This document shows positions 697 to 11,817 of a stretch of 33,774 bases of DNA, one piece after another. Each line of letters begins with the position of its first letter. The first letter of the stretch is position 1. The stretch spans positions 1 through 33,774 of the forward strand of contig CAJWYM010000042.1 of assembly GCA_913049555.1 (NCBI GenBank), in the 5' to 3' direction. The position numbers were made by a program, and so were the translations under genes. The notes under the pieces were generated by a model that saw only the letters and a list, made by a program, of their open reading frames with translations, had not been told where the DNA came from and did no database searches. Source of the stretch: an uncultured Opitutia bacterium. GTDB taxonomy: Bacteria > Verrucomicrobiota > Verrucomicrobiia > Opitutales > CAJWYM01.

Positions 697-1380
697 TCAA
701 TTTGATGGAAGTAACTCTTGAATGTTGTAAGTCGTTTTTCTATCCCCAACTTGAGCACGATAATTGGCAACTTCTTCCTCCATGACAATTGGAGCTTCAT
801 TTCCCCAAGAGGTTCTAATATAACTCAAGATGGCTGCAATGTCTTTATCCTTTAAGATCTCTCCAAAAGCAGGCATAGCTCCGTTGTAATTGACACCCTT
901 AACTTCAATAGGACCTGCTAATCCAAGCAAAATAAGTTTAGCAGGAATTCCAGCATCCCCAGTAACCCACCTAGACTCGGCAAGAGGTGGGAAAGCAGGC
1001 GGAAGTCCTTTACCACTTCCTTGGTGACATGCAGCACAACGAGATGTGTATAGCTTTTCACCTTTACCAATAAACTTCACTTCATCAAAAACTGGAACTA
1101 CATCTTCTTGAACTGCGTAGAGATCCTCCGCAGAAAATATATCCTCACGAAATTCACCCGTATTTTTTGCAAGATAAACGGCCGCCCAAAAAATAGTGCC
1201 ACCAAACAAGAAAATCAAAAAAATTGGCATTGTTTGAAAACCAAAATCCGACTTTACAATCGAATCTTTCGCCTGATTGCTATGAAAGGACAAAATTTCT
1301 TCATCAGAAATACCCTCATAATCAAAAGACTGGTTTGAATTATCAACTTTATTTGTGTTTTCTGTCTCTGTGTTCGGCAT
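697..1380 (-). CDS. Membrane-anchored monoheme cytochrome c (CcoP-position subunit)
   Basis: This 227-residue protein has a polar N-terminus of about 50 residues, one transmembrane helix (about 51-70) and a periplasmic class I cytochrome c domain. The heme site is C115-A-A-C118-H119 and the likely sixth ligand is M169 in GAMPAFG. Canonical CcoP of cbb3 oxidases carries two c-hemes; this protein has one, so it is only a positional counterpart. The start overlaps the stop of the CcoO-like gene (TAATG), which suggests translational coupling. It is the last gene of the ten-gene respiratory operon. The likely role is passing electrons between the ACIII/CcoO module and a soluble cytochrome or terminal oxidase; that role is inferred. 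Confidence 0.85.
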   Translation of the reverse strand: MPNTETENTNKVDNSNQSFDYEGISDEEILSFHSNQAKDSIVKSDFGFQTMPIFLIFLFGGTIFWAAVYLAKNTGEFREDIFSAEDLYAVQEDVVPVFDEVKFIGKGEKLYTSRCAACHQGSGKGLPPAFPPLAESRWVTGDAGIPAKLILLGLAGPIEVKGVNYNGAMPAFGEILKDKDIAAILSYIRTSWGNEAPIVMEEEVANYRAQVGDRKTTYNIQELLPSN

Positions 1381-2042
1381 TATTCTAGTGCTGTAAATTT
1401 CATTTCAGGGAGTTCATAATCTTGGTTTAGACTCATCATATATTCAACCAATGCTTTCGCTCTAGTCGTAGGGACCACTTCAAAACCCTCTTCAGGTTTG
1501 TATAAATTACTAGTGTCCATAGAAAAATCCAAGGCATCTAGAGATTTTTGACCTTTGATTTTTTTGTAATCAAAAAGAAAAGAATAAGGAGGCATATTTG
1601 AATTTGGACTTGTGATTTGTGGATTGTAAAAATGAAGCATATGCCAGTTACGATCATAATCCCTGTCTCCAACATTTGCCAAATCTTGGCCAATTCTATA
1701 AGACCCTAGAAGAACTCTACTTTGTAGAATATAATCTCTAGCAACACTTTGACGCTTCCCCCAACCCCGCTCAAAATCCGACCCCATGCCTTTCTTCCGA
1801 ACCTGTTGAGTGTGGCAATGAGAACAACCCATCTCAGTATAAACTTCCTCACCGATTTGGGCTAGACCTACAAGAGGTTCTGGGAACAAAGTCTCATCGC
1901 TTAAAATGTTTCCATTCTCATCTAACTCGCTAGAACTTCTCTCGAGATCTCCATATTGGATTTGAGTACCAAGAACCACACCCATCCATGAAAATAGAAG
2001 AGTTGCAAAAATGCCGGAAATTAAAAAAGGTAAATTTTTCAT
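1380..2042 (-). CDS. ccoO: CcoO-like monoheme cytochrome c subunit
   Basis: This 220-residue protein matches cbb3 oxidase subunit II (CcoO). It has an N-terminal membrane anchor (about 5-26), the heme c motif C73-S-H-C76-H77 followed by TQQVR, the family block GSYRIGQDLANVGDR, and the Met ligand M150 in NSNMPPYSF. In cbb3 oxidases CcoO relays electrons from CcoP to the heme b of CcoN. The start at 2042 was preferred over an in-frame one at 2147: it gives MKNLPFLISGIF, a normal anchor, and lies 16 nt after the stop of the preceding gene, whereas the longer form would run deep inside it. The heme site is intact, in contrast to the CcoN partner, which has lost its metal ligands. Confidence 0.88.
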   Translation of the reverse strand: MKNLPFLISGIFATLLFSWMGVVLGTQIQYGDLERSSSELDENGNILSDETLFPEPLVGLAQIGEEVYTEMGCSHCHTQQVRKKGMGSDFERGWGKRQSVARDYILQSRVLLGSYRIGQDLANVGDRDYDRNWHMLHFYNPQITSPNSNMPPYSFLFDYKKIKGQKSLDALDFSMDTSNLYKPEEGFEVVPTTRAKALVEYMMSLNQDYELPEMKFTALE

Positions 2043-2058: not shown

Positions 2059-3489
2059 TTACGCTTCAACAACGAGTTGCTTTGAATCCACAGGTTCAAA
2101 TAAAGCAACAATGGATACGAATAACAATTTAAGGAAATTGAATGCAAAAGAAAGATGGCCTAATAACAGCAAAACCAAGGCAAATGTTCTCGTTACTAAA
2201 TAGGGTTGTGTAACCTCAGTGATTGTCAAAAAGCTAACATTAGGATCGGACATTAATTCCCCTTGGATGTTACCACACAACCACAAACTAATAATAACGA
2301 CTGTTATTCCGATACTGGAGGATAAGAAATGAAAGTTGATAAGAAATTTAGAAGGCCAGTCAGTTCTAACGAACTTCGGTAAAATAAAGTAAAGAGAACC
2401 AAACATTAACATAGAAAAGAATGCATAATTTCCAAGTTGACTGAGAGATTCTCTAGCATAGGTGAATTGGTTGACTGCAACAGAATCAGGAGTGGATGAA
2501 AAAATTCCAAGAATTCCAAACACCGTGAATGAAAATGCACCAAAAACAGCAAACCTGAGTTTGTAATTGGATAAAACCTGCTTGAAAAATGGGATTACTG
2601 TCCAATTTACATTGATCAATGTTATCAATGCAGGAACAAACATCAAAACAGTGGCAATCGTTCCGGAAGCCTGAATCCAAACTGGAACAGGTCCATTGAT
2701 GAGCAAACGCCCGACCCCCCATGAATAAAACAATGCAAGAGACCAAAACCCAAGTGGAGCTAGGTAATACTTGTTGATGGGCCTTTTTAGAAGTTTAGGA
2801 ATGAAATAGTAAGCTGCAGCTAGACCGATTGGAGTTAGCCACATACCAAAAAAGTTATGTGCATACCAACCATGAGTCACAGATTGAACCGTTCCTCTTA
2901 CATCTGTGAAATAAATAATAAATAACGCCGCACTGAAAAACCATGGAAACCAAAAAAAGCCAGCGACAGCGTACAACTGAGATATGTAAATTTCTTTATT
3001 CAATCGATTTTTAAAAATCATAAAAGCAGAAATACCAATAAGGGCATAACTAAATAACATGGATAAAAAAACACCCCCTGGCATTTCAAGAAAATCAAGG
3101 GAAGTCATTTGACCTAAGAGAATGCACAGAATCCCAAAAGATAAGCTTAAATTCCAAATTAAACCCCCACAGAACATCAATCCTCCATGCCTGACTTCTC
3201 TAAGCCCAAGACGAGCAATAATCCATAGACCGACTGCAAAAATTGCATTGCAAGACCAACCATAGGCCATAGAGCAAATAAAAACAGATTGGGTGCGCCC
3301 ATACGTAAACCATTCAAACCCAGACAAAAAAGAAGGAATGTGAAGTTTGATCGCAGAAACTAATCCAAAAAGAGAACCGATAATCAACCAAACGATCGCA
3401 GACGCGCTAAAAAGTAGGCCTGCAGATTGCATAGATCTATCAATTTTTGATTGAATGGATTCTTCTGAAATAAGAGTGTCTTTACTCAT
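2059..3489 (-). CDS. CcoN-like (cbb3 oxidase subunit I) protein lacking heme and most copper ligands
   Basis: This 476-residue protein has about 12 membrane helices and the length and layout of CcoN. Recalled CcoN sequence aligns without gaps around the active site. The helix II heme b histidine corresponds to F70. The first CuB histidine is kept (H211, in WYAHNFFG), as is the cross-link tyrosine position (Y255, in FYSWG). The next two CuB histidines (the HH pair) are R261-L262. The helix X histidines for heme b3 and heme b are L349 and Q351. The conserved glutamate of the following region is also lost. Family scaffold signatures remain (YYFIPK, LYFILPK, INFHF). It is therefore probably not catalytic. 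It sits 30 nt after a small membrane protein and 16 nt before the CcoO-like gene. A structural or docking role with ACIII is inferred. Confidence 0.85.
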   Translation of the reverse strand: MSKDTLISEESIQSKIDRSMQSAGLLFSASAIVWLIIGSLFGLVSAIKLHIPSFLSGFEWFTYGRTQSVFICSMAYGWSCNAIFAVGLWIIARLGLREVRHGGLMFCGGLIWNLSLSFGILCILLGQMTSLDFLEMPGGVFLSMLFSYALIGISAFMIFKNRLNKEIYISQLYAVAGFFWFPWFFSAALFIIYFTDVRGTVQSVTHGWYAHNFFGMWLTPIGLAAAYYFIPKLLKRPINKYYLAPLGFWSLALFYSWGVGRLLINGPVPVWIQASGTIATVLMFVPALITLINVNWTVIPFFKQVLSNYKLRFAVFGAFSFTVFGILGIFSSTPDSVAVNQFTYARESLSQLGNYAFFSMLMFGSLYFILPKFVRTDWPSKFLINFHFLSSSIGITVVIISLWLCGNIQGELMSDPNVSFLTITEVTQPYLVTRTFALVLLLLGHLSFAFNFLKLLFVSIVALFEPVDSKQLVVEA

Positions 3490-3519
3490 AAATATGAAAT
3501 TATTAAAATTTAAGAAAGA

Positions 3520-3813
3520 TCAAAGTTCAGACCTATATTTTTGTAATGCTTTAAAGGAAGCACTTTCAATAGGGATTTGGTAAATCTTCTTATCAGCATC
3601 TAAAACTTTATAATTGTTAAGTTTTGAATTGCCTTCGGCCATGGAATCATTGGCTTTCAAAATCCTCTCCTGCTCAATGTTAAAATCGATAGGATCACTT
3701 TTTTGAGGCAAATATCCAAAATAAATAACAGCCACAAAAAGCAGAATGACGATTAAGCCCCCAAAAAAGCTTAAAAGAAGGTTGTCAGGTGAAGATGATT
3801 TAGAATTACTCAT
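3520..3813 (-). CDS. Small one-helix membrane protein of the respiratory operon
   Basis: This 97-residue protein of unknown function has a short polar N-terminus, one strong transmembrane helix (about 12-34, ending in IYFGYLPQ) and a polar tail. The tail ends in a segment around YQIPIESASFKALQKY that resembles the short I-P-I-x-x-A motif I recall from small proteins near cytochrome oxidase genes. The start overlaps the end of actF by 8 bases, and the CcoN-like gene follows after 30 bases, so it is firmly inside the operon. It may be an assembly factor or accessory subunit joining ACIII to the CcoN/O-like module. That is inference from position only. Confidence 0.7.
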   Translation of the reverse strand: MSNSKSSSPDNLLLSFFGGLIVILLFVAVIYFGYLPQKSDPIDFNIEQERILKANDSMAEGNSKLNNYKVLDADKKIYQIPIESASFKALQKYRSEL

Positions 3814-5086
3814 GATGATTTACAGACGCTAAAATTCGAGGATCTCTAATCGGTATGGCCTCTGCTTTATTCATACTCCTAAAAAAAGCAAACATGCAGA
3901 TTAAACCGATGCCAATCAATGAAGTAACATCATAAAGACTAATATTTAATTCTCTTACAACATAACCTAGGACATTGTCGGCAGCTTTTTTACCAGGTAA
4001 AATATTCCAGTATAAATCTAGTATGTGAAAAGTTAGGATCCAACAGGCGATAAAAACAGTATTTGGCATAGTCACTTTATTTTTGTAACGAAGCAACATA
4101 AAGAAAGGGGCAAAGAAATGTAAAAAGATCAAACCCATACTTACCCAAAACCATGAATTAAACTTACCAGTTATGGGGTTGATTTCACGAATAACATACC
4201 AAAAAGTTTCCTCTGGGATGTTCGCTGTATAAATCAAAAAATACTGAGAAAAACTAATATAAGTCCAAAAAATTGTAAAAGTTAACATCATACAAGCTAG
4301 ATCATACAAATGACCCCTGCCAAAAATTCCTTTCAAATAGCCCTTAGTGGCAAGAAAGAAACAAATAATGATCGTAACTGAAAGAGCTGCTCGCATTGAA
4401 GCAGCGAAAAACCAAACGCCATACATAGTTGAAAACCAATGAAATTCAAGGGATTTAAACCAATCAAAAGCTAGGAAAGTGGTTGCAAGAGCAACAAAGA
4501 AGATCGTGCCCGCCGATGTTTTAATACCGATTGAAGACCACTTGGAATCTCCATCTTGATCCATACGAAACGAACAAGTTCTCAAAATATAGGAGACAAC
4601 AAAAAACAGAAGAAAGTAAATACAAGTTCGAGCAATGAAAAAATCAACATTCAAAAATACCGACTTAGCTTGGTAGAGAGTGTCATCTCCAACCTTCAAG
4701 CCATCAGGAGTGGGCATTACATACCCCGGATCCATCCACTTCCAGACAACCCCTGCGTAATCAGGTGCCAACTTAGCAATACAAACGATAGGCAATGACA
4801 ACAAAAAAAGAACAGGGAATGCGGATAAGCCATGTTCGAGTTGCCTTCTGATAATAATTGGCCATTTAGCTTTGAAGATATAAAAAAGCAAAGTCATAAA
4901 TAACATACCAATAATGATAGAAGTCCAAAAACCAAGACCAATCAGGTATCCAAGTAAATTCCGTTTTTCATGGAGTAAAATCCCTTGATACATACCATAC
5001 CAAGATATAAAAACAAACACTAAGCCAGTAATGAGGGCAATTGTGGCATATTTGCTGTAATTTGATTTAGAGTTTGAATCAATCAT
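3806..5086 (-). CDS. actF: Alternative complex III subunit ActF (NrfD-like quinol-site membrane subunit)
   Basis: This 426-residue polytopic protein of about ten helices belongs to the NrfD/PsrC-like family. ActF is the second NrfD-type membrane subunit of alternative complex III, which oxidises menaquinol or ubiquinol and passes electrons to cytochrome c or an oxidase. Early segments such as FISWYGMYQG and the HGLSAFPVLF loop, plus the late HILDLYWNILP, fit the family. It follows actE by 18 nt and its last 8 bases overlap the next gene. Position at the end of the act block, after the monoheme cytochrome, separates it from ActC. Confidence 0.88.
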   Translation of the reverse strand: MIDSNSKSNYSKYATIALITGLVFVFISWYGMYQGILLHEKRNLLGYLIGLGFWTSIIIGMLFMTLLFYIFKAKWPIIIRRQLEHGLSAFPVLFLLSLPIVCIAKLAPDYAGVVWKWMDPGYVMPTPDGLKVGDDTLYQAKSVFLNVDFFIARTCIYFLLFFVVSYILRTCSFRMDQDGDSKWSSIGIKTSAGTIFFVALATTFLAFDWFKSLEFHWFSTMYGVWFFAASMRAALSVTIIICFFLATKGYLKGIFGRGHLYDLACMMLTFTIFWTYISFSQYFLIYTANIPEETFWYVIREINPITGKFNSWFWVSMGLIFLHFFAPFFMLLRYKNKVTMPNTVFIACWILTFHILDLYWNILPGKKAADNVLGYVVRELNISLYDVTSLIGIGLICMFAFFRSMNKAEAIPIRDPRILASVNHHE

Positions 5087-5104: not shown

Positions 5105-5764
5105 TTACAATCCTAGAGACTTCTTGTCAGACTCATTTAGATCTTCATAAGTAGCATATTGTGAAAGCTGCAAGGCCCTTACATATAATATAATGGCCCA
5201 CCTTTCCTCGGGCTTTACTCTAGCTTTAAGACCATACATTAAATTTTTTCCATTCGTAATAATATCAAACAATTCTCCTTCAGACATATCTCTGATACGA
5301 TCATCGTGATAACTTGCAGCCAACATTCCATAATCTCTTGTTACTCCACGACCATCTCCAGACGCCCCGTGACAAGTTCCACAATAGATGTCATAATGGA
5401 CCTTTCCGTCCTCCAGTAATTCGTTGGTGATTTTTAACCCAGAAGGAAATCCACGCATCCAATTTCCATCAGGATCCTTACCTGAATAGAAGGAAGGATT
5501 TTCAAGTCGGTCATTCTTGTAGTCAGCATTGAATACATCTTGAAAATGTATATTATTTCCCCTTTGAACAGTGTTTTGAACTTGCTTACGATCGCTCATT
5601 CCATTGGAGAAGAAATCATTTTCAGATTGAGACAAATACTTATCTTGATGATCCATATCTGGAAAAATCTCAATCGGAGTATTTTTTGTTTTCTTACCTT
5701 GAAATCCTAAAATAGAAACCAAAGTAATAATAGCTAGAAAGTATATACCAAAAAAATATTTCAT
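5105..5764 (-). CDS. actE: Alternative complex III subunit ActE (monoheme cytochrome c)
   Basis: This 219-residue protein has an N-terminal hydrophobic helix (MKYFFGIYFLAIITLVSILG) and a periplasmic cytochrome c domain with C128-G-T-C-H132. A C-terminal PEERWAIILYVRALQLSQ block is typical of ActE. The start at 5764 lies 1 nt after the actD stop; an in-frame start at 5863 would overlap actD by about 100 bases and spoil the signal/anchor. ActE carries one c-heme in the peripheral part of ACIII. Many ActE proteins are lipoproteins with a lipobox cysteine; here no cysteine follows the hydrophobic segment, so it is probably held by an uncleaved helix. Confidence 0.88.
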   Translation of the reverse strand: MKYFFGIYFLAIITLVSILGFQGKKTKNTPIEIFPDMDHQDKYLSQSENDFFSNGMSDRKQVQNTVQRGNNIHFQDVFNADYKNDRLENPSFYSGKDPDGNWMRGFPSGLKITNELLEDGKVHYDIYCGTCHGASGDGRGVTRDYGMLAASYHDDRIRDMSEGELFDIITNGKNLMYGLKARVKPEERWAIILYVRALQLSQYATYEDLNESDKKSLGL

Positions 5765-5765
5765 C

Positions 5766-6305
5766 TCACTCCTTAGCAGTAATAACGGTGATATCGCTTC
5801 CACCAAGTTCAGCCATAAACTCAGCAGTTCTATCCTCATCAAATTTAGGATCTCTAGATTCAATGACGATCATAAATGTGTCATCCCCTGATTTATGAAA
5901 ATCTTTATAATCGAACAAAGGATGGTTGTATCGAGGGAGGAGATTCGTTAAAAACATACCTCCGAGGGTTCCAAAAGCCGCTAACAAGATAGTCAACTCA
6001 TAAAAAACTGGGAAAGGAAAAATAGGACTGAAATAGGGTTTACCCCCTACAATAAGTGGGTAATCGTGTGCATTCATATACCAGACAATGATCAATCCTG
6101 TAACAAATCCAGAAAGACCCCCTATCAAGGTAAAACAAGGAACTTTAGATCTTTTCTGACCCATCGCATGCTCTAGACCATGAACCGGAAAAGGAGTAAA
6201 AGCGTCCCAATAGAGGAAGCCTGCATCTCGAACTTTTTCAGAAGCATGAAATACATCGGGTGTCGTTTGGAACGAAGCAATTATGCCATATTTTTTTTCA
6301 CTCAT
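5766..6305 (-). CDS. actD: Alternative complex III subunit ActD (DUF3341 membrane protein)
   Basis: This 179-residue protein matches the ActD/DUF3341 family in length and layout. It has a soluble N-terminal domain ([25 protein letters not shown], shown here only as its key region), the family motif around [16 protein letters not shown], two membrane helices (about 58-77 and 100-122), and a cytoplasmic C-terminal domain. ActD has no cofactor and is a structural subunit that packs between the two NrfD-like subunits. It follows actC by 18 nt and precedes actE by 1 nt. Confidence 0.9.
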
Positions 6306-6323: not shown

Positions 6324-7739
6324 TTAATGATCGTGACCATGCGGATCGGCAGCTGGAATAACATGTTTCACCTCAGCCAATGGCATCAGAGGAAGGAACC
6401 TTAGAAACAATAAAAATAGAATAGAAAATAAACCAAATGTTCCGAAAAATGTAAAAATGTCTACAACAGTCGGACTGTAATAACCCCAGCTTGAGGGTAA
6501 GAAATCATTTGCCAATGAAGTGGCTGTAATTACAAAACGCTCAAACCACATTCCTATATTCACAAAAATTGAAATGACCCAAACAAGAGGAGTATTGTTA
6601 CGAATCCATGAGAACCAAAACAATTGCGGGCTGATAACATTGCATCCAACCATAATCCAATAAGCCCAGGCATATTGCCCGAAAGCACGATTGACAAAAG
6701 CGAAAACCTCAAAAGGATTGGCACCATACCAAGCTATAAAAAACTCCATTGAGTAGGCATAACCTACCATGGTTCCAGTTGCCAAAACAATCTTACACAT
6801 ATTGTCTATGTGGTTTTGGGTTAAAAGATCATGAAGACCAAACACTGCCCGCAATGGCAACATCAAAGTCAAGACCATCCCAAAACCTGAGAAAATCGCA
6901 CCCGCAACAAAGTAGGGCGGGAAGATAGTAGTGTGCCATCCTGGCAAGTTGGCACCTGCAAAGTCAAAAGATACAATTGTATGAACAGATAAGACTAGAG
7001 GAGTGGATAAACCCGCTAACAAAAGGTAAGCCATTTCGTAGTTGTTCCAATGGCGAGCTGAATTTCTCCAACCCATTGCTAAAACTCCATAGAAATACTT
7101 ACGCCATTTAGCTTTAGCGCGATCTCTGAGAACCCCAAGATCAGGAATCATTCCCATGTACCAAAAGAGAACAGAAACCGTTCCGTAAGTAGAAACAGCA
7201 AATACATCCCATTCTAAAGGACTTCTAAAATTAGGCCAAATGGCATTTGAATTGGGTAAAGGAAATAGAAACCATGCATACCAAACACGTCCAACATGGA
7301 ATAAAGGGAAAATCCCTGCACAGACAACCGCGAAAATTGTCATTGCTTCAGCAGCACGATTGATAGAAGTTCGCCAAGGTTGTTTGAGTAAACATAGGAC
7401 AGCTGAAATCAAAGTTCCGGCATGCCCGATACCAATCCAAAATACAAAATTAACAATCGCCCAGCCCCAATTGACTGGATTAGCAAGACCCCACACTCCA
7501 ACTCCAGTAGAAACAAGGTACACAAGACCGAAGAGTGTAAAACTTGCGGTTCCCATAGCTGCAACCATACAAACCCACCACCATCGAGGAGTGTCTGCTT
7601 CTACAATCCCACAAATTTTATCGGTAATCCAATGAAAATCACGGTTGTTTTCAACGAGAGGTCTGGTTTCAATTTTAACAGGTTCAAGCCTGGTTAAAAT
7701 CTCCGGTGTATCATCTAAATTGTGAGTGGAAACGGCCAT
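6324..7739 (-). CDS. actC: Alternative complex III subunit ActC (NrfD-like quinol-oxidising subunit)
   Basis: This 471-residue NrfD/PsrC-family protein has about ten transmembrane helices and is the first integral quinol-binding subunit of ACIII, lying next to the ActB iron-sulfur part. Typical features are the N-terminal [15 protein letters not shown], the [19 protein letters not shown] helix, [14 protein letters not shown], and the late [13 protein letters not shown] segment. The C-terminus ends in a short His-rich tail (PHGHDH), echoing the longer tail of ActB. It follows actB by 17 nt. Quinol oxidation near the periplasmic side and a possible role in proton movement are known for the family, not shown by the sequence. 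Confidence 0.92.
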
Positions 7740-7756: not shown

Positions 7757-10700
7757 TTAATGATGGTTGCTTTTCTCATGACCATGATCACTTGGACCAT
7801 GAGCATCATGCCCATGTGAATCCTCATGCCCATGATGGTCGCCATGACCATAACGATCTTCATATTCTTGTCGTGCAAAAGGCTGACTGTAAGAATTCGG
7901 CATTTTAGGATTAGGATTGCGAATTTTGGCTAAATAAGTAGTTCTTGGTCTCAGTTGAAGATATCCGAGTAGTGAATAGTCACGGTCACTTAGCTTCATT
8001 TTAGAAACTTCACTTTCAGGATCAGAAATATCACCAAAAGAAATCGCGTCCGCTGAACAAACTTGCTGACAAGCTACCTTTATTGTTCCATCTGGGACTT
8101 TAACATTCCCCGTTGAGCCATGACGATTTTTATGATGAATCTTGGCTTCTTGTAGTCTTTGAACACAATAAGTGCACTTTTCCATAACCCCACGCATGCG
8201 AACCGTAACATCTGGATTTCTTTGCATGGCGGGAAGTTCACCTTCCAAATTTTCGCCAAAGGGACCTTGATTGTAATTGTCAATGGCTCTTTTGTTCCAA
8301 TCGTAAAAATTAAACCTTCTAACTTTGTAAGGACAATTGTTGGCACAATAACGGGTTCCAACGCAACGATTGTATGCCATGGTATTCAGACCCTCATCAT
8401 CATGGACTGTAGCATTTACAGGACAAACTTGTTCACAGGGAGCGGTTTCGCACTGAGCACAAGAAATTCCTTGAAAGGAAACCTGAACATCTTCTGGAAC
8501 CCCATTTACTGTAGAAGAGCCTTCGTCAGAGGAATAGTATCTGTCTAATCGCATCCAGTGCATTTCACGTCCTCGAGCCACTTCAAACTTTCCGACAATC
8601 GGGATGTTGTTCTCGCTTTGACAAGCAATCACGCAAGCATTGCAACCAGAGCAAGTATTCAGGTCAACAGCCATTCCCCACTGATGAGCCCCATCAAAAT
8701 TAGGAAATTCGTAGGCAGACATTCCTCGATGGGTCTCAACGGACTTTTCCTGCAATGATTTGTCTTTATCGGCTCCATAAATTGGAGGCGAGTGGGACTC
8801 CATACCCATTTTGTCTACAAAATTTGGATCTTCTTTGTAAGCTTCGACACTGGATTCTCTTATGATTGCCCGACCCTCCATGGACCAATGCTCTTGAGTA
8901 TTGGCAAGTTTGTAACGATCACTCAAAACTTCTATATTTACATTGTTTGTAAACAACGGGTTCTCAGAATTCACCAATGGGTAGGCATCAAAACCTGCGT
9001 CCTCACCAATCCTACCAACCGTCTTTCTACCGAAACCAAGAGGGGCAACAAGAGTATAATTAGCAAGACCCGGCTGGACGTGTAAGGGTCCTTTGATAGA
9101 GCGCCCGTTGACACTCAAAATAGCAAGAGGAGCCATTTCCTTCCCTCGATCGAAAACAGCCTCATATTGTTCTAAGCCAAATTTCCCTGCTCCATCTAAT
9201 AGAGCATCATCTAAATTGTTCATCTTAATTTCAGGACCAAAAATATTGACCTGGAATTTATCTTCCAACTCTTTAGCAAGACGAGGACTGATTAGAATTG
9301 CATTGTCCCATGTAAGCTTTGTCATAGGCTCAGGGCACTCCATCAACCATCCATTGTTTGCATACCTACCGTCTCCAATTTGGAGACTGGCTGGTAATAA
9401 AACTTCTACATTTTCAGAAGATACTCGAGGAGTAATAGAGCTAAATGCAGATACTAGCCTAGTGAGTTGATTGATCTCAATGGAAGGATATAAAGTTTTA
9501 AACTTGGAATCTTCGACTAAACCCTCAGCTAAGAATTTGTTAAATGCCAAATCGGGGTTGTTTGATTTGACCAACAAATCGAATGTCTTTCTGACCTCCG
9601 AGTAAGAGTCTGTATCAGACATTCCCAGAATTCCGGACATTACTTCAACAGCAGATAAACCCTCAAACAAAGGTTGTATCATAGGTTGAACAGGAAGATA
9701 AGTCCCGTCCAAAGTTCTTCCATCACTCCAAGATTCAAGGTAGTGAGTAGCAGCGATAAAGTCTCCAGAAAGCTTTGAAGTATCATCATATTCGTAGCCC
9801 CATCGAATCACATGGGAAGCTTTTGACTGAGCAGATTTCCAATCCAAATCACCCGGTGCGTTGTACACTGGATTGCCACCCAAGACAACTAAAGTTTCGA
9901 CGTCTCCACTATTTAATGAATCCGTGAGGTTTTTAATACTTGTAACTTCATGGCTCGGAATCTCTAAATAATCGACTGTATGCCCAACTGATTCTAGAAC
10001 CTCATTGATTGCAAAAGCTAAAATATGAGCTTCGACTGGGTAATGACTTCCTACAACAACCAACGACTGCTGCTTATTGCTGATTAAGTCGGTAACACAT
10101 TCATGAATCCATTGGTGATCTACATCCAGTTTTCCACCTATATTTTTTAATTTATTGACAACGTTAGGATAAACATTGGATTCATTAAAAAGTTCGGCAG
10201 CAAAAAGTCTCAAGAAAGGTAAAATGTGAGAAGAAGACAAACGAAGTCTGTGGTCTGCCATACCACCAGTTGCTGAAAGTTTCGCCTCGACAGAATACAA
10301 ACGATTCATTTTGTGAGAATCTTTAGCCGAAATAACCTTTCTTGCTTTAGAAAAACCTCTAGCTGAGGACAAACTTCCAGATTCGGATTGAAGGAAATCA
10401 CAATCAAAGGAAACAACCCTGTGAGCCTTTTCAAACTTATAACTCGGCTTTAATGATTTTCCAAATAACTGATTCGCAGCAATCTCAGGATTTTTGGAAA
10501 TGATAGGCTCATATTCAGACCAAATCACATCCGGGTATTCGGACCTGAGTTTTTGAATCAATCTATGCCGAGTTGGGGAACTGGACATTTCAGATAAAAA
10601 TGCAACTCCTTTTCCTGAAGACTGACTCAATTTAGTGTGTAAATCATGAAGAATATCATGGGCAACTGCCTTTGAAATTTTCTTACCGGCACGGGTTGAG

Positions 10701-11167
10701 TGTTTGGCTCGATCTGGATCATAAAGATCTAAAACACTTGCTTGAGCATACCCTGAAGTTCCCCCACCATAAGGAATGTAAGAAGGATTTCCTTCGATTT
10801 TAGTAGGACGGTTTTCATGAGTTTCTACAATTAAGGGCTGATTTTCAGAACCTGCGGGCATCGAGGTAGAAAAATAAGAAGCTACACCCGGAATAGTCAT
10901 TTCTGGCTGTTTGGCGTAGGGTCTGATGATCTGCTCAGGGCGACGGCAACCACTCAATCCCAAACCTGCGAGACCAAAAGAGGCAGCCATAATTTTCATA
11001 AAATGACGACGATTTACTCCTTCGATTTCAGAAGCGCCTTGAGGAAATTCACGGTGCAACCAGTCTTTAAATGCAGGAGCCTCGGACAAATCATCCAAAC
11101 TCCTCCAGTATTTGGAGCCGTTTAATTTGACATCTTGACTATTTTTATCTTGGTTTTTTAGTTTCAT
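7757..11167 (-). CDS. actB: Alternative complex III subunit ActB (molybdopterin-like plus Fe-S protein)
   Basis: This 1136-residue fusion has an N-terminal molybdopterin-oxidoreductase-like domain and a C-terminal ferredoxin-type domain with four cysteine clusters (about residues 830-1035). The clusters include [38 protein letters not shown] and CTYC with CQQVC. These fit three [4Fe-4S] and one [3Fe-4S] cluster, as known for ActB. A Tat-like signal is present, R53-R54-HFMKIMAAS with C74 in LSGC, which suggests export and lipidation. The start at 11167 overlaps the actA stop (ATGA); in-frame starts at 11176 and 11209 would add up to 14 residues inside actA. The last 30 or so residues form a His-rich tail ([14 protein letters not shown] and onward), an unusual addition. 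Confidence 0.93.
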
Positions 11168-11817
11168 CGATGACATCCTGAACAACTGATTGGTGGATTT
11201 ACGTTCCAATCATGAACGAGTTCCATACCCATTTCTAGCTGAGCTTCTTTAGATTCTGCTTTCCATTTTAAATCATACACCTTGTCAAGAGGCCTTATTT
11301 TCTCTTCAGGATTGTTATGACACTCAAGACACCATGACATACTGAGGGATTGATCATGGTGAACGACTTCCATTTGATCGATTCGACCGTGACACTCAAC
11401 ACAGCTGATACCACGGTTGACATGGATCGAATGATTGAAATAAACATAATCAGGAACCTTGTGAATTTTCACCCACTCAACAGGTTTGTCATTTTCGTAG
11501 GAAGCACGAATAGGAGCTAAGGCTGCAGACTGCGTTTTGATGATAGAATGACAGCTCATACAAGTGCTTGTGCTAGGAACATTTGCATGTGCAGACTCAT
11601 CAACATGATTGTGACAAAACCTACAGTCCATTCCCAATTGACCTGCATGAAGTTTGTGACTGAAAGCAACTGGCTGTGTGGGTTGATACCCAACTCGAGT
11701 GTACTTGGGAGTGAAGTAATAAGTCACAATTGAAGTGATTGCAATGAGCACAAGAACAATTCCAATAATAATTTTTATTGGAACGAAATTCGCCCATTTA
11801 GGAAAAACATTAGCCAT
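11164..11817 (-). CDS. actA: Alternative complex III subunit ActA (pentaheme cytochrome c)
   Basis: This 217-residue protein has one N-terminal membrane helix (about 14-34) and a periplasmic domain with five CxxCH heme sites: CRFCH (from residue 65), CMSCH, CVECH, CLECH and CSGCH at the C-terminus. Extra histidines in FSHKLHAG and FNHSIHVN are good distal ligands for bis-His hemes. ActA is the multiheme subunit that takes electrons from the Fe-S subunit ActB and feeds ActE or an outside acceptor. It is the first firm gene of the operon. A good ribosome-binding site (TTAGGAG) lies about 10 nt upstream. Its stop overlaps the actB start. Confidence 0.93.
   Translation of the reverse strand: MANVFPKWANFVPIKIIIGIVLVLIAITSIVTYYFTPKYTRVGYQPTQPVAFSHKLHAGQLGMDCRFCHNHVDESAHANVPSTSTCMSCHSIIKTQSAALAPIRASYENDKPVEWVKIHKVPDYVYFNHSIHVNRGISCVECHGRIDQMEVVHHDQSLSMSWCLECHNNPEEKIRPLDKVYDLKWKAESKEAQLEMGMELVHDWNVNPPISCSGCHR

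Follow-up and report, generated by a model that had tools for sequence, protein, structure and literature searches.

A gene for subunit I of a cbb3-type oxidase (CcoN) that lacks most of the residues needed to bind heme and copper raises the question of what such a protein is kept for. The gene discussed here lies among those for alternative complex III (ACIII) in a 33,774-nucleotide stretch of DNA from an uncultured Opitutia bacterium, and it is this whole stretch that we refer to as the window. An earlier note on the same DNA had proposed that five of the six ligand histidines were replaced and that the product was a selected, heme-free scaffold or docking subunit, or one with a new function, liable to be annotated automatically as a terminal oxidase. 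No case is known to us in which the subunit I of a heme-copper oxidase gave up heme and copper as a group yet stayed a working part, and no published account of ligand loss in CcoN was found in the open-access literature searched.

The window protein and its operon

The setting in an ACIII operon is confirmed by the gene run on the minus strand, in which ActA to ActF follow one another in order and are succeeded by a small one-TM protein, CcoN, CcoO and CcoP, with intergenic gaps of at most 30 bp (Table 1). Every ACIII locus of the class that is long enough to display it has the same order of ACIII, CcoN, CcoO and CcoP. The CcoO-like reading frame opens at 2147 and probably starts at the ATG at 2042. 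Elsewhere in the window, between 23016 and 33637, genes recognized by eye encode a GH10-like xylanase, two sulfatases, a xylulokinase-like kinase, an AraC/LacI-type regulator, a hydroxyacid dehydrogenase and a beta-helix protein, which together are likely to form a polysaccharide-use locus.

Table 1. Features of the ACIII operon in the window
Feature	Position	Strand	Remarks
CcoP-like membrane monoheme cytochrome c	697..1380	-	Pfam Cytochrom_C 1.5e-13; CxxCH and Met retained
CcoO-like membrane monoheme cytochrome c (FixO)	1380..2042	-	Pfam FixO 3e-21; CxxCH and distal Met retained
CcoN-like protein, 12-TM heme-copper oxidase fold	2059..3489	-	476 aa
Gap between small gene and CcoN, 30 bp	3490..3519	-	site of ccoS in every intact relative; ccoS absent here
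Small one-TM protein (not CcoS), 97 aa	3520..3813	-	conserved, at intact and ligand-poor loci alike, after ActF and before CcoN
ActF, NrfD-like membrane subunit of ACIII	3806..5086	-	synteny and homology
ActE, ACIII monoheme cytochrome c	5105..5863	-	
ActD	5766..6305	-	Pfam ActD 2e-60
ActC (NrfD)	6324..7739	-	Pfam NrfD 4e-21
ActB, molybdopterin-like and iron-sulfur domains	7757..11209	-	
ActA, multiheme cytochrome c	11164..11817	-	

The CcoN-like protein matches the Pfam COX1 family (E=2e-36), while its score against the ccoN equivalog TIGR00780 is 108 bits, below the cut-off of 583 bits. Its best PDB matches by phmmer are all CcoN, and the alignment to the Pseudomonas stutzeri protein (3mk7) and its relatives is gapless at the ligand sites, as the earlier note had supposed. 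The AlphaFold2 model (pLDDT 94.9) has cbb3 CcoN chains as its best Foldseek matches, with 3mk7_A at TM 0.88/0.90 and rmsd 1.8, and the fold is that of subunit I of a C-family heme-copper oxidase. The ligand sites of the P. stutzeri protein, whose numbering we take to be H60, H207, Y251, H257/H258 and H347/H349, pair with F70, H211, Y255, R261/L262 and L349/Q351 of the window protein. Both low-spin heme b positions (F70 and Q351) and the heme b3 position (L349) are therefore occupied by other residues, and among the CuB positions (H211, R261 and L262) only H211 is a histidine, leaving one of the six histidines of the cbb3 enzyme. The replacement of five ligands is upheld by both the alignment and the model set against 3mk7, and the retention of H211 and of the helix VII cross-link tyrosine, Y255, by the alignment. 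The K-channel serine, presumably S240 in P. stutzeri, is replaced by A244. The protein contains six histidines in total (50, 101, 206, 211, 387 and 445), and inspection of all six revealed no substitute in the ligand columns besides H211; H387 is present in intact and ligand-poor CcoN alike. The earlier reading thus withstood a search for other histidines in the ligand positions.

It is scarcely credible that the ligands have been misaligned and that the protein is an active, if unusual, oxidase or NO reductase. NCBIfam and Pfam do still name it an oxidase subunit I, but the gapless alignment and the predicted fold fix the columns unambiguously, a single relevant histidine is left, ccoS has been lost, and a complete A-family oxidase is encoded elsewhere in the genome. 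The subunit I of that oxidase, on another contig, is the one further COX1 protein of the source genome, and it is accompanied by a subunit II of the caa3 type, which bears a cytochrome c domain of its own. The window protein is almost certainly not an oxidase; its residues make it near certain that it would be unable to reduce either O2 or NO.

Loss of ligands and of ccoS among relatives

Of 52 genomes searched in its order, 36 have a homologue of the window protein; across the phylum the family profile, which also catches ordinary cbb3, matches in 93 of 289 genomes. For comparison we used 86 ACIII-linked CcoN proteins from class-mates within the Verrucomicrobiota, whose ligand columns are bimodal: all six histidines and the tyrosine are present in 28, none has five histidines, and 58 have between zero and four. 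The 58 ligand-poor proteins display 45 different patterns over these seven positions, often constant inside a genus, as with the near-identical AHSSRRW/AHSARRW of four congeneric species; that of family f29 is HSAQKFI. The earlier note had called for a search for homologues sharing the F/R/L/L/Q pattern of the window protein, and no such subfamily emerged, the patterns being lineage-specific and the nearest relatives (43-46% identity) fully intact. At each of the seven positions the ancestral residue is retained by at least one ligand-poor protein, so that the common ancestor was intact unless residues have been regained. Loss extends beyond the histidines: the cross-link tyrosine has become Gly, Ala or Ser in 53/58 ligand-poor proteins, and Y255 of the window protein is matched in none of the other 57. 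The K-channel serine, present in 29/29 intact proteins, is Ala in 39/58 ligand-poor ones.

The ligands are not lost alone. The gene ccoS, whose product is a factor for cofactor insertion, immediately precedes ccoN at 28/28 intact ACIII loci and at 1/58 ligand-poor loci, a result cross-checked by scanning whole genomes with PF03597, and phylogenetically independent pairs on the ACIII tree agree in 8-9 cases out of nine (p ~0.004). No FixS (ccoS) match was found anywhere in the source genome, nor any ccoS-like reading frame at the ccoS site of the window. The sole ligand-poor locus with ccoS (L095, G008:C32) reflects either a recent loss of ligands or another role for CcoS in that genome. Searches for ccoG and ccoH gave no match above family cut-offs in intact or ligand-poor genomes, and so are uninformative on loss.

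A CcoS-less form of cbb3 described by Koch et al. in 2000 reportedly lacks heme b and copper while keeping its c hemes. CcoS is required for active cbb3 (PMC7558416), and in Rhodobacter capsulatus mutants without it cbb3 is fully assembled yet inactive (PMC5742617), from which it follows that the intermediate state is viable. By analogy, the CcoS-less enzyme would be a direct precedent for a stable, cofactor-free CcoN shell, although the R. capsulatus form is a laboratory mutant whereas the state of the window protein is evolutionarily fixed and under selection. The missing ligands and the missing ccoS together suggest that the window protein would indeed be heme-free, as the earlier note held.

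How often this happened was assessed with a tree built from the partner subunits ActB, ActC and ActF, where intact and ligand-poor loci are interleaved with 11 changes. Branches with strong support require at least nine of these changes, 14 events are counted if loss is assumed to be irreversible, and a single clade of ligand-poor loci is rejected by the AU test (p 3e-5). A quick tree of CcoN itself, with ligand columns masked, places 57/58 ligand-poor rows on one side, where long branches meet. The CcoN likelihood nevertheless improves by 54 log units when family f11, with its intact and ligand-poor members together, is held whole and by 30 when f13 is. Given this gain and the rejection on the ACIII tree, the grouping in the CcoN tree looks like long-branch attraction, and a single ancient loss was discarded. 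We read the history as one of repeated, parallel ligand loss, with at least 9-14 independent events.

Features kept after ligand loss

Both cytochrome c subunits outlast the ligands, CcoO and CcoP with CxxCH being encoded at 58/58 ligand-poor loci. The distal methionine is kept in 90% of CcoP and 64% of CcoO; its loss from CcoO in some f13 and f29 lineages counts against an electron relay through these subunits. A second CxxCH cytochrome c domain has been added to CcoO in families f2 and f18, at five loci (L067, L068, L069, L070 and L072). Extra CcoP-like cytochromes occur in L033 and L034. Another heme addition to the module occurs in family f29, where the small one-TM gene that separates ActF from CcoN carries a fused monoheme cytochrome c domain (L170:12153-12947).

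For CcoN itself, dN/dS between congeneric ligand-poor proteins is ~0.05-0.25 against ~0.01-0.13 for intact pairs; constraint is relaxed yet clear, and the proteins are under purifying selection. (ActC values for L144, L166 and L171 were set aside as unreliable, the match being probably wrong or fragmentary.) Among 151 columns nearly invariant in intact CcoN, 35 remain nearly invariant in the ligand-poor proteins, mostly Gly, Pro and aromatic residues of the scaffold. Among the columns that relax most are those of the ligands and, close to them, 214, 215, 67 and 71. Only one column, Y76, is newly conserved across the ligand-poor members.

These observations bear on whether the protein comes from a decaying pseudogene that the inertia of the operon carries along while its ligands drift without selection. 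Ligand patterns do drift within genera (G030 compared with G046), the branches of ligand-poor CcoN are longer, and dN/dS is somewhat above that of intact pairs. All sampled ligand-poor frames are open and free of internal stops, however, and the dN/dS range, the 35 conserved columns, the constant presence of CcoO and CcoP and the near-identical pattern shared by four species of one genus all argue against decay, which we hold to be very improbable. The earlier note would have taken a sporadic pattern, absent from close relatives, as pointing to decay; that rule fails here, since frame, operon and purifying selection outlast the loss of ligands. Its view of a selected CcoN shell mis-annotated as an oxidase is supported by the loss of ccoS, the dN/dS values and the heme c motifs of CcoO and CcoP.

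The same evidence makes it quite unlikely that the shell has been turned to a new chemical or transport role, such as a proton or ion conduit or a substrate channel, in place of electron relay. A polytopic fold strongly kept around an emptied active site is what such a role would leave, but the K-channel serine is lost in most members, the single newly conserved column implies no new shared active site, and CcoO and CcoP are always kept.

A further alternative, which we consider unlikely, is that the protein still has a single heme, such as a low-spin heme b held by residues other than histidine, and conducts electrons inward, across the membrane or to quinone. Family f31 (L173:13054-14397 and L174:1345-2679; pattern HNSQRYH) keeps both low-spin heme b histidines, 70 and 351, but no longer has the ligands for heme b3 and CuB, and is possibly a half-way state with one heme; families f29 and f33 keep H70. 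With the ccoS of G008, f31 indicates that not every member need be fully heme-free. Against a heme in the window protein itself stand F70 and Q351 at the low-spin positions, the lack of a spare histidine and of any FixS match in the source genome, and the fact that every ligand position is missing from some lineage.

In the account that we favour instead, the ancestor was a working six-histidine CcoN, encoded after the ACIII genes together with CcoS, CcoO and CcoP, as the intact relatives show. Here and independently in many lineages it lost its ligands for heme b, heme b3 and CuB along with the K-channel serine, and ccoS disappeared as well, while the CcoN shell and both cytochrome c subunits were retained. 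The window protein would most likely be a membrane platform, free of cofactors, on which CcoO and CcoP are seated against ACIII, a role akin to the scaffold or docking function suggested in the earlier note. Electrons from menaquinol would enter ACIII (ActA/ActE), pass to CcoP and CcoO and leave for a separate aa3 or caa3 oxidase, probably within a supercomplex. As an explanation of the whole, a cofactor-free platform for relay between ACIII and the aa3/caa3 oxidase appears probable to us. Against the platform, CcoO and CcoP apparently have TM anchors of their own and do not obviously require a further 12-TM protein.

Partner oxidases and published counterparts

A full-length A-family COX1 was found in 51/52 ligand-poor genomes scanned, the remaining genome (G041) having a fragment. 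Such an oxidase is also encoded in 22/28 genomes with intact CcoN and is missing from 6/28, so that it may permit the loss of ligands but was rejected as its explanation; the Fisher p for this comparison makes no correction for relatedness among the genomes. In G010 and G186 the intact ACIII-linked CcoN is the sole COX1 protein, and must therefore be a working heme-copper oxidase there. Genes for A-family subunit I follow CcoP at 16 sampled loci, and families f29, f30 and f33 have ACIII, ligand-poor CcoN, CcoO, CcoP, CtaD, CtaE and CtaC in a single run. One of the 16 loci (G295) is intact, hence the arrangement is not specific to loss and may be older than it. A point against the relay is that the caa3 genes of the source genome lie on a different contig, where gene order does not tie them to ACIII.

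Supercomplexes of ACIII with caa3 and with aa3 are known, with direct heme-to-heme transfer (PMC5928083). Those of Rhodothermus marinus (caa3) and Flavobacterium johnsoniae (aa3) resemble the proposed arrangement in handing electrons directly to an A-family oxidase via c-type hemes, and differ in having no module of CcoN, CcoO and CcoP between the complexes. With the cbb3 oxidase the window module shares the fold of subunit I, the order ccoN-ccoO-ccoP and the heme c motifs of CcoO and CcoP; unlike that enzyme it has no heme b, b3 or CuB ligands, K-channel serine or ccoS, it sits in an ACIII operon and its CcoP is monoheme.

A C-type oxidase beside ACIII has been described from verrucomicrobial methanotrophs and Opitutaceae only, and was treated as an oxidase (PMC8498564). 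For Methylacidiphilum kamchatkense Kam1, the cbb3 linked to ACIII was presented as consistent with a high affinity for O2 (PMC6688271). These systems have the gene arrangement of the window, and the Methylacidiphilum protein is homologous to the window CcoN, but they were published as active cbb3 whereas the active site is kept in some lineages only. The ACIII-linked CcoN of M. kamchatkense is missing five of the six ligands: in the genome that we take as M. kamchatkense Kam1 (G191), which carries pmoA-family genes, the seven positions read S/E/S/S/H/F/V. The published 'cbb3-type oxidase' is contradicted here, for the only C-family CcoN match found in the Methylacidiphilum group belongs to the ligand-poor kind. 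In the same genome, ActF, the ligand-poor CcoN, CcoO, CcoP, CtaD and CtaE form one run (L191:12624-19204). With more reserve than for the window protein, we lean towards the broader proposal that many parallel conversions across Verrucomicrobiota have produced a cofactor-free pseudo-oxidase platform, bearing a cytochrome c relay, in a supercomplex of ACIII, CcoN with CcoO and CcoP, and aa3, and that the cbb3 reported as a high-affinity oxidase from verrucomicrobial methanotrophs is not an oxidase.

At least nine losses accompanied by that of ccoS amount to a natural experiment on the non-catalytic role of an oxidase shell, and inform the wiring of respiratory complexes III and IV. Ligand-poor CcoN genes are counted as oxygen reductases both by automatic annotation and in published physiology, and microaerobic or high-affinity respiration inferred from CcoN matches in Verrucomicrobiota needs a check of the ligands. 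Two genomes contain CcoN of both kinds: G023 has a stand-alone, fully intact CcoNOP with its own ccoS (L066, G023:C93) and a ligand-poor ACIII copy without ccoS, and G144 has a ligand-poor ACIII CcoN (C1; QQGRHQQ) and a second, intact CcoN elsewhere.
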